IMG/VR virus record: IMGVR_UViG_3300029448_000054
Location: 1 to 55,048 of that record
Direction: 5' to 3' (one strand)
Origin: a virus
Length of the DNA: 55,048 nucleotides
The notes beneath the pieces were generated by a model, which was given only the letters and a program-made list of their open reading frames with translations, had not been told where the DNA came from and did no database searches. Positions within the stretch are counted from its first letter, which is position 1; the number at the start of each line of letters is the position of its first letter. The position numbers were made by a program, and so were the translations under genes. Shown here one piece after another: positions 18,635 through 36,888 of the stretch.

Positions 18635-18770
18635 CAGTTTTACCTCCCTGTATAACTCGGAGCATTGGGGCTGGCTTATCTTCTAAACTATTTAGAACAA
18701 TCTCAAGGAGTTTTTTCAACTCCTCAATTCTATCCGTAGTAGGAGTTCGTTCTTGGCGGTACATCGACAT
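18618..18770 (-). CDS. 50-aa protein between terL and portal
   Basis: Start at ATG 18770 (MSMYRQERTPTTDRIEELKK) gives 50 residues, a short helix LLEIVLNSLEDKPAPMLRV and a basic end IQGGKTDGKTT. It overlaps the end of terL by about 40 bases and the portal start by 17. A longer start at 18806 would lie fully inside terL. Tight packing argues for a real gene, but there is no motif. Confidence 0.5.
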   Translation of the reverse strand: MSMYRQERTPTTDRIEELKKLLEIVLNSLEDKPAPMLRVIQGGKTDGKTT

Positions 18771-20220
18771 GGTCGTTATAATCCTCTGGGTGCTGTATAA
18801 ACCCACCTTCGCGGAAACGTCGGAGAGCCTGTGTTACTGTATCAACAAAATCATCATTTTCACCAACCGGAAATGAAGCACACTCTTCTATCACTTCCTC
18901 TGCCCATCTAGTATCTGGAGCCCATACTAACCCACTTTCTAGGATTGGCGCAATGGAGTTTACTCGAGTATATTTATCATTACCTCTACTCGGGGAATAA
19001 TTCTGCACAGGAATACCCATACTACGCAATTCTTGCGTTAATGGCATACCAGTCGCTTTTGCCTCAATAATCACACATTCAGGCTCCCAATAATCATATT
19101 CTTCTTTTGCAATACGCTTTAAATCAGGGAAATCCCATCTACCTCTTCGCGCATCTACTAGAATAATGTTGGGGGGTTCTCCCTCCACGGGATAAAATAC
19201 ACCCCATGTGGTTATCGCACTATAATCAGCATTCTCCTTTTTACTAAATGCTGTATCATAACTCTGCATAACATAACTTAATTTAGGGATATCTTCTTTT
19301 TCCCACTGATTCCACCACTCACGCTTCAAAATAGCAGTCGTCTCACTCGTAGGATTCTGCTGCCATTGGGCTTCCCATTTACCTACTGATAATGAAGCCT
19401 TCACCTTTAATAATTCTTCTTTTTTCCAAAACTCAGGCCATAACACTTTATAACCATCTTCAGATTTTTCATCTTCTAATAATGCCGGAAACTCTACTAC
19501 TTCCCATTGGTCAGCCAGTACATCTCGCGCTTGCTGTTTTAATAATTTGCCAGTTAAATCAATCTCTGACCAACGCGTCATCACAATTACAATCGCTCCT
19601 CCAGGCTGCAATCTCTGCCGTGGACCAGATGTATACCACTCATAGGCATTCTCTAATGCTGCGGGTGACATTGCATCTTGTTCGGAGTGCGGGTCATCAA
19701 TAATCATTAAATCCGCACCACGGCCTGTAATCGCGCCACCTACACCCGCCGCAAAATATTCACCGCCAGCATGGGTCTCCCATCTGCCAGCCGCACTACT
19801 ATCCTGCCGTAATTTTACATCTGGAAAGACCAGAGAGTAATCGGTACTATTCATAAGGTTACGCACCTTTCGGCCAAACCTCACCGCTAACTCACCTGTA
19901 TGCGTTGCTTGAATAATCTTTAACTTTGGATTCAAACCCATTAAATAACTCGGCAATAAATAACTGGCATACTCCGACTTCGTATGTCGCGGCGGCATAT
20001 TCACAATTAACCGCTTAATACTACCATCAGCTAAACCATTAAACTTCTTTGCCATTATCTTATGGTGCTTCCCCTCAATAAACTCAGGCCATACTGTTTT
20101 ACAATAGGCCATAAAATCCTTCTTCGCGTGATCACTCGAGATGTGCTGTTTCTGCTTCTCAAGCAAACGTGCATACTGCTTCAATACTTCTTCAGGGACA
20201 GTCATTGGGGCATTTGTCAT
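18730..20220 (-). CDS. terL: Terminase large subunit
   Basis: A 496-aa packaging motor. ATPase: Walker A-like PPRHTKS at about 76-82, Walker B LMIIDDP at about 171-177, and motif III region IVIVMTRW. Nuclease (RNase H fold): Asp322 in QSYDTAF, Glu386 in VIIEAKATG, and Asp457/Asp460 in NDDFVDTVTQAL. It translocates DNA through the portal and cuts it at the end. The PPRHTKSE form of the Walker A is typical of this family. No strong ribosome site precedes the ATG at 20220; a second Met at codon 6 is possible. The leader holds the hairpins at 20389-20445. Confidence 0.92.
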   Translation of the reverse strand: MTNAPMTVPEEVLKQYARLLEKQKQHISSDHAKKDFMAYCKTVWPEFIEGKHHKIMAKKFNGLADGSIKRLIVNMPPRHTKSEYASYLLPSYLMGLNPKLKIIQATHTGELAVRFGRKVRNLMNSTDYSLVFPDVKLRQDSSAAGRWETHAGGEYFAAGVGGAITGRGADLMIIDDPHSEQDAMSPAALENAYEWYTSGPRQRLQPGGAIVIVMTRWSEIDLTGKLLKQQARDVLADQWEVVEFPALLEDEKSEDGYKVLWPEFWKKEELLKVKASLSVGKWEAQWQQNPTSETTAILKREWWNQWEKEDIPKLSYVMQSYDTAFSKKENADYSAITTWGVFYPVEGEPPNIILVDARRGRWDFPDLKRIAKEEYDYWEPECVIIEAKATGMPLTQELRSMGIPVQNYSPSRGNDKYTRVNSIAPILESGLVWAPDTRWAEEVIEECASFPVGENDDFVDTVTQALRRFREGGFIQHPEDYNDHVDVPPRTNSYYG

Positions 20221-20454
20221 AATTATTTAATAATATAAAAATTTTCTTGGCGCAAGACTCTCCGATCATTGTTTCAAAAAGGGGGGTGGAGGTACGCTGA
20301 ATAATTTTCAGAGTGGTAATGATTTGGACAGAACCGTGTACTGCGCTGCGCTGGTACAGGTTCATCGCTCTCTAGGGGGGTTGCCCCTGTTGCAAAAGTG
20401 CAACACTGTAACAAATGTGCAGCGGGGTACCTTTTGGCACCCCGCCGCTAGGGG
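20221..20454. other. Non-coding leader between terL and the GA/TC-free gene
   Basis: No gene is seen. Positions 20221-20372 are ordinary, with an A/T-rich stretch just before terL. From 20377 to 20445 there are several short hairpins: GGGG/CCCC at 20377-20387, GTTGCA/TGCAAC at 20389-20404 and a strong one at 20422-20445. The last TC before the dinucleotide-free island is at 20371-20372. A structured, non-coding spot directly before terL and between the two terminase genes is a reasonable place for a packaging site (inference). Confidence 0.6.
20422..20445 (-). terminator. Strong hairpin after the GA/TC-free gene (terminator or structural element)
   Basis: A 10-bp stem GCGGGGTACC/GGCACCCCGC with a 4-base loop (AAAA on the minus strand). 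One pair is a wobble. It lies 10 bases past the TAA of the 181-aa gene. No T run follows on the minus strand, so it is not a classic terminator; it may protect the RNA end or be part of a DNA site. The hairpin itself obeys the GA/TC ban. Confidence 0.6.
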
Positions 20455-21000
20455 TTAGCTTGCCAGTACTAGCTTGCCAAACGCTGTGCCGTATGTGGCA
20501 ACTGTTTGGCTGCTTAAAGCAAACGCACCGTTTAGTATTGCGGCAACCGCGTTTTGGTTAGTGTGTGCGCTGTTAGCGTTACACAGTACACCGCTGCCGC
20601 CTTTAAGCACACCGTTAGCATGTGTGCCAGCAATGTGCATTGCTGCATGGCACTGTACTAATGGGGTGGCTGTTAGCTTGCTAGGCACTTTTGTATTAAT
20701 GCCAGCAACATTAAAGCATTTAACACCCTTAACAGTATGCTGTGGCACACCATTTACACACGCCCATAACATTAAGCCGCGTGCGCTAATAACGCCCTGC
20801 TTGTTTGGCTGCATAACCGCCCATAGCTTGCCGCCACCAAACAGTACACCGTTTGCCAATGCATTAGGCGTAAACTGTAAAGCTACATTGCCCATGCCGT
20901 TAGCGTTAATAAAGGCGTGCATAGCTGCAACATTAATATTGCCAGCCGCACCATTTGCACCGTTAAAAGCCTGTGCCGCTTGTGTTGTTGTGTTAACCAT
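20455..21000 (-). CDS. 181-aa protein with no Asp or Glu, encoded in GA/TC-free DNA
   Basis: ATG at 21000 with AAAAAGGGG upstream; TAA at 20455. Composition is rich in Ala, Gly, Asn and Val, with one Arg and zero acidic residues. Motif-like parts are NVAAMHAFINANGMGNVALQ, NGVLFGGGKLW, SARGLMLWACVNGVPQHTVK and NGVLKGGSGVL (a second copy of NGVLFGGG). Ser is coded only by AGY; TCN, GAN, GGA, AGA, CGA, ATC, TTC, CTC and GTC codons are all absent, as are GA and TC across codon junctions. The codons favour G in position 1, as real genes do. The ribosome site lacks the usual GGAG because that would contain GA. Absence of TGA stops inflates frame length here (a 208-aa frame is also open on the plus strand), so the gene is likely but not certain. 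No family recognised. Confidence 0.7.
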   Translation of the reverse strand: MVNTTTQAAQAFNGANGAAGNINVAAMHAFINANGMGNVALQFTPNALANGVLFGGGKLWAVMQPNKQGVISARGLMLWACVNGVPQHTVKGVKCFNVAGINTKVPSKLTATPLVQCHAAMHIAGTHANGVLKGGSGVLCNANSAHTNQNAVAAILNGAFALSSQTVATYGTAFGKLVLAS

Positions 21001-21085
21001 TGTTAACCCCTTTTTAGTTAACGCCGCCGCCCTATGCGGTGGCTATACATATTTTATGCCACAGGTGGGATATGGGTGTAAACCC

Positions 21086-21136
21086 CTAAAAGCACATTAA
21101 TGCAAAAATAATTGCAATAACCCCAATTAACGCCAT
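21086..21136 (-). CDS. Possible 16-aa hydrophobic peptide
   Basis: ATG at 21136-21134 overlaps the TAA of the small membrane protein gene (TAATG), so it could be made by coupled translation. The peptide MALIGVIAIIFALMCF is one short membrane helix, ending TAG at 21086. It lies in DNA that also lacks GA and TC. It may be chance; there is no independent ribosome site. Confidence 0.3.
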   Translation of the reverse strand: MALIGVIAIIFALMCF

Positions 21137-21312
21137 TAGCATTTGTGCCGCCATGCACCGATATAGCCGACCATAAAGCTGGATAAGCCAATGGCAAATA
21201 TCATTGCGGTCATGTAATGGTGCAACGGTGGGATATTAAACAGGTCCGCACTGGTAAACATTAAGAACACACCAGCCAACATAAGATAGGTATATGTAAA
21301 GATCATCAACAT
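21136..21312 (-). CDS. Small membrane protein, two helices
   Basis: Start at ATG 21312 after GGGGAG; 58 aa. Two membrane segments are visible: MLMIFTYTYLMLAGVFLMF and MTAMIFAIGLSSFMVGYIGA, with a short polar loop (TSADLFNIPPLHHY) and a basic end WRHKC. It sits between terS and terL in a run of small genes. Holin-like or membrane-modifying roles are possible, but no family is recognised. Confidence 0.58.
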   Translation of the reverse strand: MLMIFTYTYLMLAGVFLMFTSADLFNIPPLHHYMTAMIFAIGLSSFMVGYIGAWRHKC

Positions 21313-21738: not shown

Positions 21739-22191
21739 TTAAGCTGGGATAACGAACAGCTCAACGAAGTTCTTGCCCCATGTAGCCTTGGCTGATGGTG
21801 ACTGCCCACCATTAAGCGCGTCCAATAAAGCATGGAACTTTCTTGCCTTGATTGACTTATGGGCTAAGTCTACATCGGTTAAGGTAACTACATGACCCTC
21901 ATGGTCGGAGTTGATCAACTGCCATACTACCTTACCACGAAGGGTGAGGTTGGGATTGCCTACCTCATCAAATAATGTTTTTGCCTTTTCAAAAGGAAAA
22001 GGATTAGGCGTACCAACTACATCAACAGTAGGCCGGACACCGACATTATTTGGATTGCCGCCAGCTTGCTCTTGGACAAACTTAAAAATGTCCTGAGCGG
22101 TGACTCCCATATTACGCTGGTCCTCGGGGAGAGAATTAATGCCCTGAAAAGTGATTTCCTGAGCTACGACTTTTTTAGCTGATTTAGCCAT
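21739..22191 (-). CDS. 150-aa conserved phage protein
   Basis: Start at ATG 22191 (MAKSAKKVVAQEITFQGINS) after AAGGAAC; 150 aa. The protein has SLPEDQRNMGVTAQDIFKFVQEQAGG, TPNPFPFEKAKTLFDEVGNPNLTLRGKVVWQLIN, and ARKFHALLDALNGGQSPSAKATWGKNFVELF. It is soluble, with no clear catalytic motif. It stands between the nuclease gene and a terminator in the packaging region. A DNA-binding or virion role would fit; not recognised. Confidence 0.6.
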   Translation of the reverse strand: MAKSAKKVVAQEITFQGINSLPEDQRNMGVTAQDIFKFVQEQAGGNPNNVGVRPTVDVVGTPNPFPFEKAKTLFDEVGNPNLTLRGKVVWQLINSDHEGHVVTLTDVDLAHKSIKARKFHALLDALNGGQSPSAKATWGKNFVELFVIPA

Positions 22192-22344: not shown

Positions 22345-22782
22345 TCACCGGACCTCTCGACCTGGATCGTCGCTCATCATCAGTCGTCGGAGGACTCTTG
22401 CCCATCCATCTCCATCCATCGGCCATTCCATCCGGTCATCGTACAATGGCTCTCCATCCATCAATCTCTTACTCAGGTTTCGGCCATCCATAAATAATAG
22501 CTGCCCTGACGAAGGATGATGAACCAAGTTCCAAACGCATCCACCAACAGATGTTCTTGAGGTCTGCCATGCTATTTGATGAGGACGCCACTTGGGGAAC
22601 TTCTTGTCAGACTTTGTCGCAAGTATCTTTAACTCTACCCAGAAATCCTTGCCATTCAAGCAACCATTGACATCAGGCACTCCTGGACTTGCCCATGACT
22701 CCATTCTAGTCCAGTGTACCCCAAGGGGTCTGGTTCCATCGCGTAAGGCTTTCCAAAGTTTAGACTCAGGGTTCTTTGCCAT
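22345..22782 (-). CDS. VRR-NUC-like endonuclease
   Basis: A 145-aa protein with a PD-(D/E)xK core of the VRR-NUC type: ESKLWKALRDGTRPLGVHWTRMESWASPGVPDVNGCLNGKDFWVELKIL. Asp in GVPDV and Glu-Leu-Lys in WVELK supply the metal site, and KFPKWRPHQIAWQ is the usual downstream motif. These nucleases cut branched or flap DNA. Here the gene overlaps terS by 17 bases, so it may help resolve concatemers or trim ends during packaging (inference). The C terminus has repeats of Met-Asp-Gly coded by ATGGATGG words. Confidence 0.8.
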   Translation of the reverse strand: MAKNPESKLWKALRDGTRPLGVHWTRMESWASPGVPDVNGCLNGKDFWVELKILATKSDKKFPKWRPHQIAWQTSRTSVGGCVWNLVHHPSSGQLLFMDGRNLSKRLMDGEPLYDDRMEWPMDGDGWARVLRRLMMSDDPGREVR

Positions 22783-23326
22783 CAGGTAAAACCTCCAGTT
22801 TGTCCATCTCTATGACAGGGCTGGTCGCTTCTACCAATGCTGGGTAGTCTTGCTGTATCCGCTTAATTTCAGTAAGCACTTCTTCTTTACTCATTTGGTC
22901 TATCTTACCATGCAGTATTTCTTTACGGTCAATGTAAAGACCCGCAGCTTGGCCTCTTGATTTTTCAGCCGAGACTGCTGCTGCATAGTTTCCATTCTGC
23001 ATAGCTACATCACGGAGTTGTGCTAACTTCTGTACATGGCTTTCAAAGGTGACCTCGTACTTCTGTTGTAGCTCTTTCTTTATTTCATATACCCTGTTCA
23101 AAACCTGAGGGTAGTTACGTCCGTTCAACATATGGCTTGCGATAGAGTGTGCATTGGATTCAGCGTACCCTGCCCTGAGTGCTGCTTCCGTCTGTGTAAC
23201 TTCTTCTGTTGCATAGATCATTGCAAACTTTTCCTGCATGGGTGTCAGCCCTTTTTCCACCCGAGGATTAGCCACAATGTCCAAACTGTTTTTATGAGTA
23301 ACCTTTGCCTTTGCCATAAGACTCAT
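22766..23326 (-). CDS. terS: Terminase small subunit
   Basis: A 186-aa protein with an N-terminal helix-turn-helix of the TerS kind: GLTPMQEKFAMIYATEEVTQTEAALRAGYAESNAHSIASHMLN. A helical oligomerisation region follows (VYEIKKELQQKYEVTFESHVQKLAQLRDVAMQNGNYAAAVSAEKSRGQAAGLYI). It recognises the packaging site and recruits TerL. Start at 23326 or at codon 4 (MAKAKVTHK); neither has a strong ribosome site. It precedes the VRR-NUC gene and, after a 2.5-kb gap of small genes, terL. Confidence 0.82.
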   Translation of the reverse strand: MSLMAKAKVTHKNSLDIVANPRVEKGLTPMQEKFAMIYATEEVTQTEAALRAGYAESNAHSIASHMLNGRNYPQVLNRVYEIKKELQQKYEVTFESHVQKLAQLRDVAMQNGNYAAAVSAEKSRGQAAGLYIDRKEILHGKIDQMSKEEVLTEIKRIQQDYPALVEATSPVIEMDKLEVLPDGKEP

Positions 23327-29265: not shown

Positions 29266-29793
29266 TCAAACGCTTAAATTATAATGAGTTAGCACTTTAT
29301 TGACTGGCTCAAAATCAGGTAGATCAGAAAACCTTTTGTATAAGAAGTTGATACCTGTATGCATAATCACTTTCATTTGTTCACTTTGACTTGAGTGGCG
29401 ATTAGAATAGAGTACCAGTTCAAGCATATCTGCCATTTTCAATCTATTCTTTTCATCTGCGGTAAGAACAAATATCAATCCAAGGTCTTCAAATACTTTT
29501 TTCTCAGCATCTTCAAATGCTTTTTGTACTTCAGGATAAGACCATTTAGCGGTAGCTGGTATATCACCAAGTATCAATTCAGGCACATCATGATACAATG
29601 AAGCCATGATGAGTTGTTTTGTACTATCAGGCCAGAGTTGGTCTATCAATATACTTACTGCGTATGAATGTGCTCCCACTGTCTGTCTTTCTGCTTGCAT
29701 GGCAACTGTATGGAAGCGCAATAAAAATTGAGCATCCCATGCTGTTGTCAAAGTTTTAATGTTTGGTATTGTCTGGCATTGGTGTCCCGCCAT
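29266..29793 (-). CDS. HD-domain nucleotide phosphohydrolase (YfbR-like)
   Basis: A 175-aa protein with the HD signature spread as in YfbR-type 5'-nucleotidases: RFHTVAMQAERQTVGAHSYAVSILI (first His), SLYHDVPELILGDIPATAKW (His-Asp pair, GDxPxxxKW) and KMADMLELVLY (last Asp). Such enzymes dephosphorylate deoxynucleotides. The DatZ dATPase of cyanophage S-2L belongs to the same broad family. In this phage it may trim a normal nucleotide pool so that a modified one is used (inference). GAGGGG lies before the ATG at 29793; it overlaps the polymerase gene by 38 bases. Confidence 0.78.
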   Translation of the reverse strand: MAGHQCQTIPNIKTLTTAWDAQFLLRFHTVAMQAERQTVGAHSYAVSILIDQLWPDSTKQLIMASLYHDVPELILGDIPATAKWSYPEVQKAFEDAEKKVFEDLGLIFVLTADEKNRLKMADMLELVLYSNRHSSQSEQMKVIMHTGINFLYKRFSDLPDFEPVNKVLTHYNLSV

Positions 29794-31675
29794 CTTTTAC
29801 CCCTCTTGACCAAGGCTTATCACTAAATGTCTTTTTTGCTTCGCCCCAACTCGGACCAAACTCTGCATCTACCACACTTGGTATCTGCATATCTACACAA
29901 GTCTCCATGATCTCTTGTATCACAGAGGCTGTTTCTGGTTCAGCTACTGATATATCTAATTCATCATGCACTTGTATCAATGGTGTTATACCTTCTTTAT
30001 GTAAAGCTACCATCGCAGCTTTTGTTTGGTCGGCAGCACTACCCTGTATCAATCGGTTAAGGGCTTTATATGTGAAAGCGCGTTTGATAGCTGGACCATG
30101 CTCAGCATATGCATCTTCATATGTCTGTGGTTTATACAATCCATAAGCATTTGGTTCCCATTTATCAAACCTACATTTGCGACCAAGCAGGGTACGGATA
30201 ACACCTTTATTAGAAGCACGGTTGACTACATAATCAGCAAGCTGTTGAACAAAAGGGACTTTACCATGATACTCTTTAAATAAATCTTTAGCATCCTCAT
30301 ACTCAAGTCCTAATTGTTCTGCCAGTTTATTCTTACCCATCCCATAGAACAAACCAAGGTTAATATCTTTTGCTTGTTTACGAGGTACTCCAACTATATC
30401 GGCAGCCATCTGGTGGAAATCTGTAGTAGCATCTACATTGTACTGGTCAGCAAACTCTTGTGCGCCAGTCAATTTAAGTAGGCTAGAATAATGGACGACG
30501 AGCCGTGGTTCTTGGCTACTATAATCAAAAGCACCCCACAGTTCACCTTCTTCGGGTAAGAACAATCCGCGTATCATAGGACCAATCTCAGCATTCCTTG
30601 CTGGTACTTGCTGTAGATTAGGATTGCTATAACTGAACCGACCTGTAACTGTCCCACCATCATCACTACGGAGGCTATGTGCCTCAGCATGAATACGACC
30701 GTTATGTTGGTGCTTTATAATAGTGTCGATAAAGGTGGTTCTAGCTTTATTCAGCTCACGAGCTCGAACCACGGCCTGAGGAAGTGCATGGGCATGGTTG
30801 GCTAGAAAATTCTTAGTGAAGCTAGGCTGGCCTGATTTGGGCGTTTTAGGGTAAGTCAACCCCTTTGCATCAAATGCTTTAGCGATACTTGCCGCTGCCC
30901 ATATATCAATATCTGTACCACCTGATTCTTGTAATACTTTTTCCTCTTCCCTTTGCAGATACACCTTTAACTCTTCAGCTTTTTCTAGGTCTACCCGCAC
31001 ACCTTTCTTACGCATATCAAATACAACTTTGAGGACTTGTAATTCAAGGTCAAATATATCTGCTATATCTTCTTTTACTATTATACCTTTAAAGAACTGC
31101 CACAATTTCAGGGTAAGTGCAGCATCCTGTTCAGCATATGCACCCACAAAATGAGCAGGGAGTTTCCACATTTCACTCTTAGCATTTACACCAAAAGAGT
31201 TAGCTGCTTCATATAAATCTTTTTCACTCTTACGCTCATTCAGGTAATCACGGCCTAAAGCATTGAGGGCATAACTAAACCTATTTTCATCAATAAGTGC
31301 AGCTACAATCATTGTATCTACAATACGGCCTTTTACTTCTATACCTTCTGCCCATAACCATCCAAGGTCATACATAGCATTATGCATAATATAATCACGC
31401 TCAATTGAGCATACATCAGCTAACCAGCGGAGTGTTTGTTTAGCATCAAGGTTACTACCATTATCATGCCGGATAGGGAAATACCAAGCAGCACCATCCA
31501 CAGCTACCGCGATGCCAATTACATAACCATCTTTACGAGGCCATCCACTACCACGAGATGTAAGGTTAGGGTCACAGGTTTCTAAATCAATAGATACCTC
31601 CCTAGCTTCCGATAGATCGGGATAGCCATCTGGCATTACCCATTCAGTCGGTGGTGTGAATAGTGGGAATTGCAT
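29756..31675 (-). CDS. polA: DNA polymerase, family A
   Basis: A 639-aa replicative polymerase. The 3'-5' exonuclease is present: Asp30/Glu32 in SIDLET, Asp103 in HNAMYDLGWL, and Tyr180/Asp184 in YAEQD. Polymerase motif A is DYSSQEPRL (Asp384). Motif B is RKQAKDINLGLFYG (Arg432, Lys436, Tyr444), with Leu440 at the site equal to E. coli Phe762. Motif C is QVHDELD (Asp571, Glu572). There is no 5' nuclease domain. The motif A form (SSQEPR for SQIELR) and Leu762 mark a marine phage lineage. It lies after the modification cassette. Confidence 0.92.
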   Translation of the reverse strand: MQFPLFTPPTEWVMPDGYPDLSEAREVSIDLETCDPNLTSRGSGWPRKDGYVIGIAVAVDGAAWYFPIRHDNGSNLDAKQTLRWLADVCSIERDYIMHNAMYDLGWLWAEGIEVKGRIVDTMIVAALIDENRFSYALNALGRDYLNERKSEKDLYEAANSFGVNAKSEMWKLPAHFVGAYAEQDAALTLKLWQFFKGIIVKEDIADIFDLELQVLKVVFDMRKKGVRVDLEKAEELKVYLQREEEKVLQESGGTDIDIWAAASIAKAFDAKGLTYPKTPKSGQPSFTKNFLANHAHALPQAVVRARELNKARTTFIDTIIKHQHNGRIHAEAHSLRSDDGGTVTGRFSYSNPNLQQVPARNAEIGPMIRGLFLPEEGELWGAFDYSSQEPRLVVHYSSLLKLTGAQEFADQYNVDATTDFHQMAADIVGVPRKQAKDINLGLFYGMGKNKLAEQLGLEYEDAKDLFKEYHGKVPFVQQLADYVVNRASNKGVIRTLLGRKCRFDKWEPNAYGLYKPQTYEDAYAEHGPAIKRAFTYKALNRLIQGSAADQTKAAMVALHKEGITPLIQVHDELDISVAEPETASVIQEIMETCVDMQIPSVVDAEFGPSWGEAKKTFSDKPWSRGVKDGGTPMPDNTKH

Positions 31676-31817: not shown

Positions 31818-32208
31818 TCCCTCGCATTCGCACTTCTGCCTCTACAAGAAACAAATACCTACGCAAATCACGGATATCATCAAGTATACCTTCCTCACGC
31901 ATATCATCTTTAGCAGCTAAGAATACATCATAATTGTATTCATTCACTTGCTTTTCAAGCCTATCCCATTTGCGAGCCAGCATCATAAATGCACCAACAC
32001 CGCCACGCTGTTTCCAACTATCACCATAAGATTGCTCAGAACCATGCAGCCCTTCTACATCTTGATTAGCTAACCCGAGGATATTATTAACAATAGGGCT
32101 ATAATCATCAGGGGTAATATCATCCTTTTTTGCCATAACCGTATACTCCTCCCAATTTAATTCCTTCATACGCCTTTTCATGTATTGTTCGTGGCTTTCT
32201 CTTCCCAT
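31810..32208 (-). CDS. Nmad1/DUF1599-like nucleotide modification associated protein
   Basis: A 132-aa protein. The core GSEQSYGDSWKQRGGVGAFMMLARKWDRLE, then EEGILDDIRDLRRYLFLVEAEV, recalls the DUF1599 family, renamed nucleotide modification associated domain 1, which has a MazG-like helical fold. The name came from its genomic link with nucleotide modification genes, and here it overlaps the thymidylate synthase-like gene by 31 bases. Both the ATG at 32208 (AGGAGAG upstream) and one at 32136 (MAKKDDITPDD, GGAGGAG upstream) have good ribosome sites. Two products are possible. Family call is moderately sure. Confidence 0.62.
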   Translation of the reverse strand: MGRESHEQYMKRRMKELNWEEYTVMAKKDDITPDDYSPIVNNILGLANQDVEGLHGSEQSYGDSWKQRGGVGAFMMLARKWDRLEKQVNEYNYDVFLAAKDDMREEGILDDIRDLRRYLFLVEAEVRMRGNG

Positions 32209-33206
32209 TTATCTCTCCTACGTTCTAACCATTCCCAAGTGGCTAAATGCCAATCATCGGGTTTTATATCTGCACAATGGTCAAAAGCTAAAGCTAATTC
32301 TTTAGCTTTCCATGCTTGCCATACTCGGTGCATAGGTTGTGCCAAATCAGAGAAACAGGAGTTTTTATATGCTCTTGGCCTTTCAGCATCCTCCATAAAC
32401 CAACTAAGCTCTTTATCAAATGATTCTATATTATTTACCAAAGCATCTGGCCTAATCATACGCACATTATATGATTCATAATCAGGCTGCATACCCTCTA
32501 GCTTTTTTAATACTTCAGTATAAGCATGGAGGTTATTACTAAACTGTGTATAGATGCCAACACTCGCGCCGATGCGTGAGGCTATATACTCTTGGAGAAT
32601 GGACATATGGACAGCATTAGCTCCCAATGCACCCCAGATCATATCATTACTACGGTTGCATACTGTCATATCAAGTATATTATCACGCACACTAAAATAG
32701 ATATGGGTATTACAAGGGTGGTCTTTACAGCTATTAGCCATCCGTAAATCACCTTCAGCATCCCACATTGCAAGCACTGCTCGTCTATCATTTGTATGTG
32801 TCATTAATCTATGGGTGATCACATCAATCTGGTCACGATGGAAATAATTACGCCAACGATAACCATATGCTCCCTGTAATAATTTACCATCATCACTATA
32901 CTCACCCATCCGTGCATTATAGCGTTGTATCCACTCTAAATCATTACGCCCTGCTAACATCCACAGGCTTTCCATAAAATGAAATATGGGGTTTGCATCA
33001 CGCTCGGGATAGAACAGTACACGTTCGCGTGGGCTATTGTAGACAATAGCGCATGGTTCACGGAACTCAATTGCTTTACCATTACGAGTTTCTACTTCTA
33101 CACCATCAGCTTCTAATGCTTGCTTCACAACAAACAATGCTTCACTTACATTTCCTACGGTGAAAGTATGCACCCCTCGCATGGGTGCTTTGCCATATAA
33201 TGCCAT
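32178..33206 (-). CDS. Thymidylate synthase family: probable dNMP (dUMP) hydroxymethylase
   Basis: A 342-aa protein of the ThyA fold: Arg141-Arg142 (phosphate), Cys165 in HPCNTHIYF (nucleophile), RSND at 185-188, and FSNNLHAY near 222. It departs from ThyA at defining sites: Cys-Asn in place of Cys-His, WGALGANAVH in place of LGLPFNIASY, and QFSNN in place of HLYSNH. The usual C-terminal Val-Ala-Val type end is absent. These changes recall phage deoxynucleotide hydroxymethylases. It may make 5-hydroxymethyl-dUMP (or thymidylate) from dUMP and methylene-tetrahydrofolate. Its neighbours, an HMUDK-helical protein, radical SAM enzyme and glycosyltransferase, favour the first. Not decided by sequence alone. 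Confidence 0.75.
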   Translation of the reverse strand: MALYGKAPMRGVHTFTVGNVSEALFVVKQALEADGVEVETRNGKAIEFREPCAIVYNSPRERVLFYPERDANPIFHFMESLWMLAGRNDLEWIQRYNARMGEYSDDGKLLQGAYGYRWRNYFHRDQIDVITHRLMTHTNDRRAVLAMWDAEGDLRMANSCKDHPCNTHIYFSVRDNILDMTVCNRSNDMIWGALGANAVHMSILQEYIASRIGASVGIYTQFSNNLHAYTEVLKKLEGMQPDYESYNVRMIRPDALVNNIESFDKELSWFMEDAERPRAYKNSCFSDLAQPMHRVWQAWKAKELALAFDHCADIKPDDWHLATWEWLERRRDKWEEKATNNT

Positions 33207-33289: not shown

Positions 33290-34309
33290 CTAGCTGTCTG
33301 AGTAACCTGTAATAAAGTCAAAATGTTTCTTGACCCTTTTAGTATAAGTACCTCCTTTTAACGCCTCCTTGATTGCAAGCGTTGTTTCCTCAGTAGGCTC
33401 GGGTAATGCCTTGCGTCCCATGCGGTCAGGTAACAATCCATTACGCAAAGTGGTATTGTCACAACCGTTACAAGGACCGAAATCACGTTGCCCATGATAC
33501 AATTTTGTTCGCGCTGCATGAAATGCCTCCCCCTGCCATACTTCTTCCATTGGTGTATCAATTACATTGCCACACTTATACCATCCTACCCAATCATTAC
33601 AGCAAACAGCAACATTACCATCCCAACGTATAGACATCTCACGGAAAGGTTTGGCACACCGTTTACCATCTTGTTCATGGTTTAGATGGAAAGCGTTACC
33701 AGCGTGGTTACTGACTTGGGCATGGGTTCCACTTGTAGCGAGCGTAAGATCCATTCCAACCACGATAATATGTTCAGTAGCTTTTCGTCGTTGGTGAGGG
33801 TTTGCGTTACGTTCTGCGGGGTATTCGTATACAGGGTATGGACCATTATATCTCTCCTTTATTTTATCCACTATTTTTATACGATCATAATTATCAAGAA
33901 ACAGTACATTCAACCCTGCTTCCATCAGTTGGTTGACACTTTTTTCAGTGTCGCGTAAAAGACCACCACCATTACTGGTCATCATTAAAGATGTTTTTGG
34001 TAACTCCTGACGGAACAATCTAATCATATCAATAAAGAAAGGATGCATAGTTGGCTCACCATGCATGGCAAACTCTAGCCGAGGGTTCCACCCTGCTTCT
34101 TTTATACGAGCACATATAGCCCTAGCTGCTTTGATACTTAGATATTTGTAAGGGGCAGATGCTTTACCATGCGTATTATCCGGACCATCTGCACCATTCT
34201 CTCGTATAGATTGTATACCGCAAAAAGAACAAGCAAGGTTACAACCCTCTGCTAATTCTATCTGAATAGAGTTTGGTGGGTCTTGGTGATTGTTAGATTG
34301 CGCCGCCAT
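33290..34309 (-). CDS. Radical SAM/SPASM-type enzyme
   Basis: Start taken at ATG 34309 (MAAQSNNHQDPPNSIQIELA), 339 aa, overlapping the glycosyltransferase gene by 17 bases. Cys23, Cys27 and Cys30 form the CxxxCxxC [4Fe-4S] site, with LEFAMHGEPTMHP as the GGE-type SAM motif. The C-terminal half has RCAKPFREMSIRWDGNVAVCC, KCGNV and FGPCNGCD, a SPASM-like set of Cys for auxiliary clusters. The enzyme makes a 5'-deoxyadenosyl radical. In the thymidine hypermodification pathways of other phages a radical SAM isomerase rearranges an amino-acid-thymidine adduct; a similar role here is inference. Confidence 0.8.
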   Translation of the reverse strand: MAAQSNNHQDPPNSIQIELAEGCNLACSFCGIQSIRENGADGPDNTHGKASAPYKYLSIKAARAICARIKEAGWNPRLEFAMHGEPTMHPFFIDMIRLFRQELPKTSLMMTSNGGGLLRDTEKSVNQLMEAGLNVLFLDNYDRIKIVDKIKERYNGPYPVYEYPAERNANPHQRRKATEHIIVVGMDLTLATSGTHAQVSNHAGNAFHLNHEQDGKRCAKPFREMSIRWDGNVAVCCNDWVGWYKCGNVIDTPMEEVWQGEAFHAARTKLYHGQRDFGPCNGCDNTTLRNGLLPDRMGRKALPEPTEETTLAIKEALKGGTYTKRVKKHFDFITGYSDS

Positions 34310-35078
34310 CTTTAGCCGCCTTTCTCCATTGTACACGAACATCCCAGCGTGTTTTCATACCTTCCCACCCTGTTTTAGTTTCTTTCTGTACTGCTTTCAC
34401 ATACATAGGAAACTCTTCTGCTAATGCTAGGCTTGCTTTTTCTTGTAACTCTGCATTGCGGTATGAACTGCAACCTCCAGCCGCACCGGAAGCACCACGT
34501 TGATCCCATGTCCAATCAACAATAACAGCATTACGATGTCCTGACTGAAACAGTTTCAGGGTAACGTAATAATCCTCCATCAGATCCATGGCATCATAAC
34601 GTATACCTAAATTATGTATTATTTCAGGGCGTATTGCATGGACAGCATTTTGTCGCATACCATATTTAACTGTATCGGGGAAGTGCTTATCATTCATTTG
34701 CCGTGGGCTGAGGCCAACATGGGTATGGTTCATTAATAACCATTCCATACGCTCCCATAACTCATGCATTTCTTCTTGGTTTGTTTTTCTTAGGTTGGCA
34801 GCCATCCCATGTATGCGGCGACCAAATATAAGATCATCATCCAAAACAATAATTTTATCATGTCCTGCCTCCATAGCATGTTCTAATATAAACTGCCTTA
34901 CATTATTGATTCCTTTAATTTCACCGCGATTTATACAATCACGTCCCTGTTTTGTATGCCAGTTTATTTCTTCTTGTGGGCAAACAAGAGCAGCATACTC
35001 TCGGGCTTCCGGACCAATACTATCCCAAGTAATTTGGTTATTCATCCTACCCCTTGTTGGTATATATATCGGTATCAT
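34293..35078 (-). CDS. GT-A glycosyltransferase, TAGT-like
   Basis: A 261-aa protein starting MIPIYIPTRGRMNNQ, the first strand and loop of GT-A folds. A DxD-type metal site LDDDLIF is at 80-86, NAVHAIRPEII and DLMEDYYVTLKLFQSG (Glu168/Asp169) follow, then a DWTWDQRGASGAAGGCSSYR acceptor-side loop. The layout matches TET/JBP-associated glycosyltransferases (TAGT), predicted to add sugars to hydroxymethylated pyrimidines. No TET/JBP gene is in the window, but the synthase-like gene could supply hydroxymethyl-U. ATGA overlap with the zinc ribbon gene. Confidence 0.75.
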   Translation of the reverse strand: MIPIYIPTRGRMNNQITWDSIGPEAREYAALVCPQEEINWHTKQGRDCINRGEIKGINNVRQFILEHAMEAGHDKIIVLDDDLIFGRRIHGMAANLRKTNQEEMHELWERMEWLLMNHTHVGLSPRQMNDKHFPDTVKYGMRQNAVHAIRPEIIHNLGIRYDAMDLMEDYYVTLKLFQSGHRNAVIVDWTWDQRGASGAAGGCSSYRNAELQEKASLALAEEFPMYVKAVQKETKTGWEGMKTRWDVRVQWRKAAKDGGAI

Positions 35079-35370: not shown

Positions 35371-36267
35371 CTACGCCACCTCCCCATGTACAGCCTCCAG
35401 CATAGAACCTTGTAACCCATTATACTTACTGCGAGGTGTACCTTGACCAAGGCGTACACGCTCATATTTATCCCACTCGCATAAGCTATGTTCAATGCAA
35501 CGCATATCCACTGCCAAATTCGGGATGTGATCACCAAGATAACGGTGCGAATCTTCGTGTAGATCTTGCATCTCCCTATTACTTTGATAGGCACTTAACG
35601 CTTTAGTGAGGGGTCTGCCATGGATCCTGTTGAGGCCACGTTTTGCTCCCGGACCAGCGTTTGCCCATTTGTATTTATCTTTTGCTTGATCAAGGACAGG
35701 TGTGTAGTTGAGGTCTGTGACGACCTCATAAGACATAAAACCTCCCCCGCCCCATCCTTTATATGCACCCAACGCTTTGTGTACTTCTTCCAGCGATTGC
35801 GTATCAGCGGCGGTCTGCGCCAACGCTTCTCTATTCTCCCATATCGGCGAAAGGAAATGGTCAACAACGACCTCCGACTTTGGTGCTTTAAGACCTTGGT
35901 TAGTGATTATATACGCACCAGTGAATGTCCGTAAACCATTGTCAATTCTAGTTTGTATAAGTTCTTTTGTGCGAGCAGGATTAAATTCTTCTACCCAACC
36001 ATGTTCTTCAGCAAACTCACTTGTGCCAACCATACGAAACATACAACAGTTAAATATCATTTCACCATGTGGGCGGTTATCATTTGGCTTAGTCCAGTTT
36101 TGGCGCATCCAAACAGTCACCCTATCATTCTCACGGAAAGGGTTAGTAAACTTATAATCCCGCAGTATAGGGTCATCAGTCCAAGGGGCTGGTTGCCCCT
36201 TGGCTCGTTTTTGGTAAATAGCGTGACGCTCGTTTATCCAGTAGCAGAACCTTTCTATGTTCTCCAT
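35371..36267 (-). CDS. DNA base hypermodification protein (HMUDK-helical/aGPT-Pplase type)
   Basis: A 298-aa protein with the N-terminal motif set WINERHAIYQKRAKGQPAPW, TDDPIL (31-36), FTNPFRENDRVTVWMRQNW. Later come LGAYKGWGGGGFMSYEVVTDL (about 166-186) and GPGAKRGLNRIHG (205-217), a helix-hairpin-helix-like part. This order marks the helical domain of 5-hydroxymethyl-dU DNA kinases and the related glutamyl/putrescinyl-thymine pyrophosphorylases, which act on hydroxymethyl-U in DNA. The P-loop kinase domain is absent, so it is a stand-alone version. It starts the cassette. Its exact substrate cannot be read from sequence. Confidence 0.8.
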   Translation of the reverse strand: MENIERFCYWINERHAIYQKRAKGQPAPWTDDPILRDYKFTNPFRENDRVTVWMRQNWTKPNDNRPHGEMIFNCCMFRMVGTSEFAEEHGWVEEFNPARTKELIQTRIDNGLRTFTGAYIITNQGLKAPKSEVVVDHFLSPIWENREALAQTAADTQSLEEVHKALGAYKGWGGGGFMSYEVVTDLNYTPVLDQAKDKYKWANAGPGAKRGLNRIHGRPLTKALSAYQSNREMQDLHEDSHRYLGDHIPNLAVDMRCIEHSLCEWDKYERVRLGQGTPRSKYNGLQGSMLEAVHGEVA

Positions 36268-36270
36268 AAT

Positions 36271-36888
36271 TTATTCTCCTAACTGGATACAGCCTTTTTC
36301 AATAGCAAGGCGAATATCAACGCTATTGCCTCCGGGACTTAGTGCTTTCATAGCGGTAAGTGCTTCACCCACTGTTGGTGATTTAACAAGGGCTTCAAAG
36401 TTATGCCAACGATTACTGTTTTCACGGTAAGGGTTTTGGTACACACCTGAAGCACCAGCAATCACAAGTATCTTAGCATTTAAATCATACTTAGATTTTG
36501 CTACACGCTTTGGTTTATCGGTTACAATAGCCTCAATGCCTTGTGGCTCGGGCGTGATATCTACTACTTCGGCAGTCATGTGTTTCTCCTTTGAAACAGG
36601 TTTATATTTCTTAGCTTTCTCATGAACATACTCAGCAAAATTCTTATGAAAGCTGGGATAATTTGGCAGGGTACATTCACCCTGAGTAGCTGTAACGACA
36701 CTGCGTAACTCTTCTTCACTGTATGTATCCTGTAATTGATGTAGTTCAGAGAACACGATACTATGCTCATTCAATTCTTTGCACTCCCTTAACTCTCGTA
36801 AGGATTTGAAAACAAAGTAAGAATACGGATCATTACGGTTACTTTCTATACTGTTTTCTAATACAGCATATGTCTTTATGGCTACCAT
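36271..36888 (-). CDS. 205-aa hypothetical protein with internal start
   Basis: MVAIKTYAVLENSIESNRND then FKSLRELRECKELNEHSIVFSELHQLQDTYSEEELRSVV... In the middle, an in-frame ATG at 36579 (MTAEVVDITPEPQGIEA) has AGGAG 6 bases before it, so a 102-aa C-terminal product is likely made too. The C-terminal part has KSKYDLNAKILVIAGASGVYQNPYRENSNRWHNFEALVKSPTVGEAL, resembling a small DNA-binding or winged-helix-like unit, but no family is sure. It precedes the hypermodification gene by 3 bases, in the same operon. Confidence 0.6.
   Translation of the reverse strand: MVAIKTYAVLENSIESNRNDPYSYFVFKSLRELRECKELNEHSIVFSELHQLQDTYSEEELRSVVTATQGECTLPNYPSFHKNFAEYVHEKAKKYKPVSKEKHMTAEVVDITPEPQGIEAIVTDKPKRVAKSKYDLNAKILVIAGASGVYQNPYRENSNRWHNFEALVKSPTVGEALTAMKALSPGGNSVDIRLAIEKGCIQLGE

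Follow-up and report, generated by a model that had tools for sequence, protein, structure and literature searches.

A 696-bp island in a phage genome, IMG/VR record IMGVR_UViG_3300029448_000054, contains neither GA nor TC, two words that are each other's complement, and it is strongly supported that selection, not chance or mutation bias, lies behind their absence. The island (positions 20373-21068) spans a small gene, here called gene B, from its promoter to a terminator-like hairpin. It is selectively maintained in related phages, accompanies a cluster of genes of thymidine-hypermodification type, and is matched in the same genome by an ordinary paralogue, gene A. The chances are about even, in our view, that the island is a complete transcription unit free of the target of the phage's own DNA hypermodification. 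The window analysed comprises positions 1 to 55,048 of that record, and all coordinates refer to it.

Extent and statistics of the island

Reading every base step of the window placed the last TC before the island at 20371-20372 and the next GA after it at 21069-21070, with neither word again until 21160. The GA at 21069-21070 (plus strand; TC on the sense strand of gene B) is a lone word within the gene B promoter spacer, so that the depleted region effectively extends to 21159. The remaining dinucleotides all occur within the 696 bp (14 of 14). At the density of the window itself (0.102 per base) about 71 occurrences of GA or TC would be expected there, and 87 under equal base frequencies; the chance expectation for gaps this long in the window, at its own density, is 7e-28. 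The runner-up gaps measure 91, adjoining the island, and 71, and the longest gap for any other dinucleotide pair is 293 (the rare CG), so none is comparable. The initial annotation, made from these letters alone, had given the 696 bp without either word, the single GA in the following 90 bases, an expectation of about 87, the presence of the other dinucleotides, the ordinary density of the neighbouring DNA, and a gene, leader and strong 3' hairpin within the island. All of these are borne out, with GA and TC at normal density in the rest of the window. An assembly artefact is ruled out, because dozens of independent contigs have GA/TC-free tracts of 600-991 bp in the corresponding position.

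Conservation and selection in relatives

The relatives are IMG/VR loci with a homologue of gene B, which in nearly all of them directly precedes the gene for the terminase large subunit (terL). Protein searches returned 22 and then 60 such loci, with identity down to 29%, and in most of them gene B lies in a tract of 600-970 bp without GA or TC; the phages that bear the island form a marine and freshwater family. Among 103 distinct B proteins, the coding sequences of 52 have no GA and no TC at all; counting these, 62 have no more than one of either word. The others fall into 15 with at most one GA and two or more TC, 15 with a few GA, and 11 that are relaxed.

Gene B is a true coding gene under purifying selection, with ratios of nonsynonymous to synonymous rates (dN/dS) of 0.04-0.22 at synonymous divergences (dS) up to 1.3; the tract persists at the same place though synonymous sites have turned over. 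In a simulation in which the protein was held fixed and codons were drawn from the same genome (2000 draws), 10-17 GA and 16-31 TC are expected in gene B, and the lowest counts over all draws were 1 GA and 3 TC, whereas most copies have none. The TC sites of relaxed relatives align to TT, TA, AC, GC, CC and others; since the replacements are mixed, no single mutation type accounts for the loss. Mapped on a terL tree, the tract must have changed state 13 times or more, and its state varies even between close relatives. This conservation despite deep divergence, together with the simulation and the mixed replacements, strongly supports the selection against a two-base word proposed in the initial annotation. 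Some relatives are relaxed, so the avoidance rule is not universal, and no other dinucleotide was found to take over in the relaxed lineages.

The two strands relax independently, a point that the initial annotation overlooked, as it did the relaxed relatives and the paralogue described below. In several lineages sense TC is at expectation while GA still numbers 0-2; others have 2-5 GA and no TC. Every B copy put through the simulation is short of sense GA (TC on the template), and this holds even for relaxed copies (observed/expected 17/24, 11/19, 9/15 and 9/21). Since sense GA stays depleted where sense TC reaches expectation, the template strand is the more strictly kept. The genomes G044, G059 (L193, L209), G062 and G097 keep the modification cluster and have relaxed B genes that encode 7-12 Asp/Glu, which offers a useful natural contrast.

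Gene B and its transcription unit

Gene B (20455-21000, minus strand) encodes 181 aa with no Asp or Glu. Alignment of relatives gives the order of the unit as promoter, leader, open reading frame (ORF) and hairpin, all on the minus strand. The promoter has a conserved -35-like hexamer TTTACA (21077-21082), about 82 nt 5' of the ATG, and a -10-like element CATAAA(AT) (21053-21058) across an 18-bp spacer; its consensus in relatives, TTTACA, 17-18 nt and TATAAAAT-like, is sigma70-like. The hairpin 3' of the gene (20419-20448, minus strand) has a 13-bp stem whose sequence varies while the pairing is kept; it is terminator-like, and in one clade a T run follows it. Across relatives the tract ends at almost the same distance from gene B on its 3' side, mostly 75-97 nt past the stop codon, and its 5' limit is variable. 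In most relatives the depletion includes the promoter plus 41-150 nt upstream of the -35. We considered TTTACA as a GA-avoiding stand-in for TTGACA and dropped the idea, since gene A also has TTTACA.

A second small palindrome, TGTTGCACTTTTGCAACA, lies just within the 3' boundary of the island (20388-20405, minus strand), and a possible 18-aa hydrophobic ORF (21086-21142, minus strand) lies where the depleted region extends 5' of the island. In the L073-L092 clade a GTTAACATGTTAAC-like palindrome is found on both flanks of the island, at one end 5' of the promoter and at the other close within the 3' limit. The DNA between island and terL (20221-20371) has ordinary GA and TC and is strongly conserved, here and at the same place in relatives; it ends in a CACCCCCCTTTTT-like sequence and is a possible packaging or control site.

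Gene B belongs to no Pfam or PHROG family, and single A2 members gave only weak Pfam matches; it has no sequence relative in PDB and nothing in Rfam, and its AlphaFold model, of moderate confidence (predicted local distance difference test, pLDDT, 71), found no Foldseek match. A tblastn search of GenBank phages returned no relative of gene A or B, and GTDB contigs no relative of gene B. A gene purged of GA and TC in this way has not previously been described: the literature searched holds no account of such a tract, as the initial annotation had supposed.

Gene A, the ordinary paralogue

A few genes upstream of gene B lies gene A (21739-22191, minus strand), with normal GA, TC, Asp and Glu and its own TTTACA-type promoter. 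The kinship emerged from a scan of genomes bearing HMUDK_hel, a gene of the modification cluster, which found further tracts encoding a second, distantly related set of proteins. By profile comparison this second set matches gene B (E=4.9e-6) and, more strongly, gene A (E=2.8e-13). Because these matches join it to both, A and B are paralogues, of which B has diverged; a direct A2-A4 profile comparison is weak, a caveat on the paralogy. In 43 distinct copies of gene A, GA numbers 9-31 and TC 13-39. The AlphaFold model of gene A is poor (pLDDT 51). In gene A of the window and its relatives, sense TC stands above the prediction of the codon simulation in most genomes, which may reflect codon choice under high expression.

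The modification cluster

From their gene content, these phages probably decorate their DNA chemically. The cluster, about 14 kb from gene B and encoded on the minus strand, includes a thymidylate-synthase-like (ThyA-like) protein (32178-33206; PF00303, 71 bits; 42% identical to the ThyA-like protein of phage M6), which by homology is presumed to be a deoxyuridine monophosphate hydroxymethylase for synthesis of 5-hydroxymethyldeoxyuridine (5hmdU). It also holds a radical SAM/SPASM protein (33290-34342), a glycosyltransferase of the TAGT (TET-associated) family (34293-35078; PF20691, E=1.8e-15) and an HMUDK_hel protein (35371-36267; PF18723, aGPT-PPlase1 / 5-hmdU DNA kinase helical domain, E=4.9e-53) presumed to act on T in DNA. 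Next to HMUDK_hel, most of these genomes encode a conserved protein of about 200 aa with no family match (36271-36888), which may belong to the modification system.

The cluster, with its ThyA-like enzyme, HMUDK_hel and in most cases a glycosyltransferase, is present in every contig bearing gene B whose length suffices to reveal it. HMUDK_hel is present in all relatives with coverage, among them 13 of 13 contigs found through gene B that have enough upstream sequence; contigs without it stop within about 12.5 kb upstream. In that test, the 11 records showing HMUDK_hel, the window included, all have a ThyA-like enzyme and a TAGT. The TAGT occurs also in the window's clade and is absent from family-2 genomes; in other lineages the glycosyltransferase slot is filled by a GT-group-1-like protein (11 genomes) or an unassigned protein (3 genomes). 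A search of the window and 11 relatives for the P-loop 5-hmdU DNA kinase PF18748 gave nothing at E<=1; the family is matched by M6 gp54 and the Sonora homologue. The DpdA-type 7-deazaguanine modification of phage CAjan has a GA motif; neither DpdA nor preQ0 synthesis genes appeared among the window ORFs scanned, which covered part of the ORFs.

Elsewhere in the neighbourhood, also on the minus strand, are terL (18730-20220), with gene B about 210-630 bp upstream of it in relatives, the terminase small subunit (22766-23326), an HD-domain YfbR-like 5'-deoxynucleotidase (29266-29793) and a family A DNA polymerase (29756-31675).

A proposed transcription unit exempt from modification

The simplest single rule that covers the data is the absence of TC on DNA, which fits a modification target. 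Because GA pairs with TC on the opposite strand, a target of this kind is absent from both strands of the island, and the two avoided words are reverse complements of each other, as expected of a target in duplex DNA. We prefer avoidance of modification because the tract accompanies a thymidine-hypermodification cluster, and those relatives of the cluster that have been studied modify T in TG or TC. In phages M6, ViI and phiW-14 the positions of resistant sites point to TG/TC as the context of hypermodified T, and TG/TC sites are blocked by the 5hmdU kinase (PMC6449724, PMC7653180). Phosphorylation of 5-hydroxymethyluracil lowered transcription by E. coli RNA polymerase to 37% of that on plain DNA (PMC6457204). 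The promoter-to-terminator extent and the template bias point to transcription as the process concerned.

We propose that the ThyA-like enzyme would lead to replacement of T by 5-hydroxymethyl-dU, and that HMUDK_hel with the glycosyltransferase or a similar partner would decorate T in 5'-TC-3'. A GA/TC-free duplex, lacking the target on both strands, would then stay undecorated. Bulky or charged groups on T would impede the host RNA polymerase, chiefly when on the template strand, and gene B would still be read without hindrance from a fully modified genome, either at entry or at a late stage of infection, with paralogue A made when modification matters less. That a duplicated gene was recoded strand by strand to hold no hypermodification target, in a unit that works where other genes are hampered, strikes us as a plausible account that falls a little short of an even chance.

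Several points weigh against this proposal. Neither a tract nor A or B is present in M6 and Sonora, although both phages carry HMUDK_hel and ThyA-like genes. The PF18748 kinase domain is missing from the window and its relatives, as described above. About one in ten B copies is relaxed although the modification cluster is present; G044 and G059 combine the cluster with a nearly ordinary B, and their HMUDK_hel sequences show few substitutions and no obvious loss of function. A specificity for TC only is assumed, whereas the studied enzymes also act on TG, which the island does not avoid. Gene A has the same promoter type yet no GA depletion, so strong expression alone does not require an island, and the proposal does not explain why gene B alone would need exemption.

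Alternative explanations

The rule might act on RNA, with a gene B mRNA free of GA, and usually of UC, evading an endoribonuclease or RNA-binding protein while B is expressed. Such a rule would suit both the strand specificity of the strictest avoidance (no sense GA, with sense TC optional) and the coincidence of the tract with a transcription unit ending in a hairpin. We find it unlikely, mainly because the depletion passes the promoter into DNA that is not transcribed from it, reaching 41-150 nt past the -35 in most relatives, although transcription of that DNA from an upstream gene is possible. It would moreover need two RNA rules for two complementary words where one DNA rule suffices, several lineages retain GA in the Shine-Dalgarno sequence, and the link to modification genes is left unaccounted for.

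Rather unlikely, too, is that the tract serves as an unmodified landmark which proteins recognise at the DNA level, such as terminase for packaging or replication proteins, with gene B carried within it. The position directly upstream of terL in nearly all relatives, beside conserved non-coding DNA, is what such a landmark would predict. Gene B is nevertheless under strong purifying selection, the tract tracks gene, promoter and hairpin, relaxation of one strand alone is hard to reconcile with a landmark in duplex DNA, and a stretch much shorter than 700 bp suffices for a pac or cos site.

A nuclease or DNA-binding protein of phage or host, acting on GA/TC independently of base modification, would equally remove a word plus its complement; since the rest of the genome has normal GA/TC it would have to act in the island only, no candidate was found and the link to the modification cluster is not predicted, so that we hold it improbable. 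Of the three agents suggested in the initial annotation (a modification, a nuclease or a binding protein), DNA modification fits best and the other two are disfavoured. Mutation bias or hypermutation (for example by a cytosine deaminase with a preference for TC), or a protein that simply lacks Asp and Glu and hence GAN codons, deserves almost no credence given the mixed TC replacements, which led us to reject a deaminase, the GA and TC still expected with the protein fixed, and the non-coding flanks likewise free of both words.

Comparison with known systems

The window shares a ThyA-like enzyme, HMUDK_hel and a family A polymerase with M6, and the T target context of the M6/ViI/phiW-14 systems includes TC, the word missing from the island. 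It differs from that type in having no PF18748 match, with a TAGT or GT-group-1-like glycosyltransferase in the cluster instead. The nearest named relatives are the HTVC023P-type pelagiphages HTVC027P and HTVC023P, plus 023Pt_psg01 and DSL-LC04 (terL 54-62%, DNA polymerase 52-56%). In the 50 kb searched of each we found no HMUDK_hel, ThyA-like gene or A/B, and no tract, the longest GA/TC gap being 65-83.

In the restriction-site avoidance of phage genomes a short word is under-represented owing to an enzyme that acts on it; here, in contrast, the word has two bases, is fully removed, and the removal is confined to one gene unit of 0.7-1 kb, with normal frequencies elsewhere. Vertebrate CpG islands are promoter regions free of DNA modification in which the target word is retained and protected, whereas here the word itself is missing and the coding region is included.

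Implications

Hypermodification of phage DNA is mostly viewed as armour against restriction, and how a phage reads its own genes from such DNA has been little explored. If our proposal is true, primary sequence encodes which part of a hypermodified genome stays accessible to RNA polymerase, and the purged gene is a natural record of the sequence context of the modification and of its transcription cost, strand by strand, with the A/B pair as a built-in control in most genomes. It predicts from sequence alone that T is modified in TC in these phages, and word-free genes may provide a general route to the modification targets of uncultured phages.
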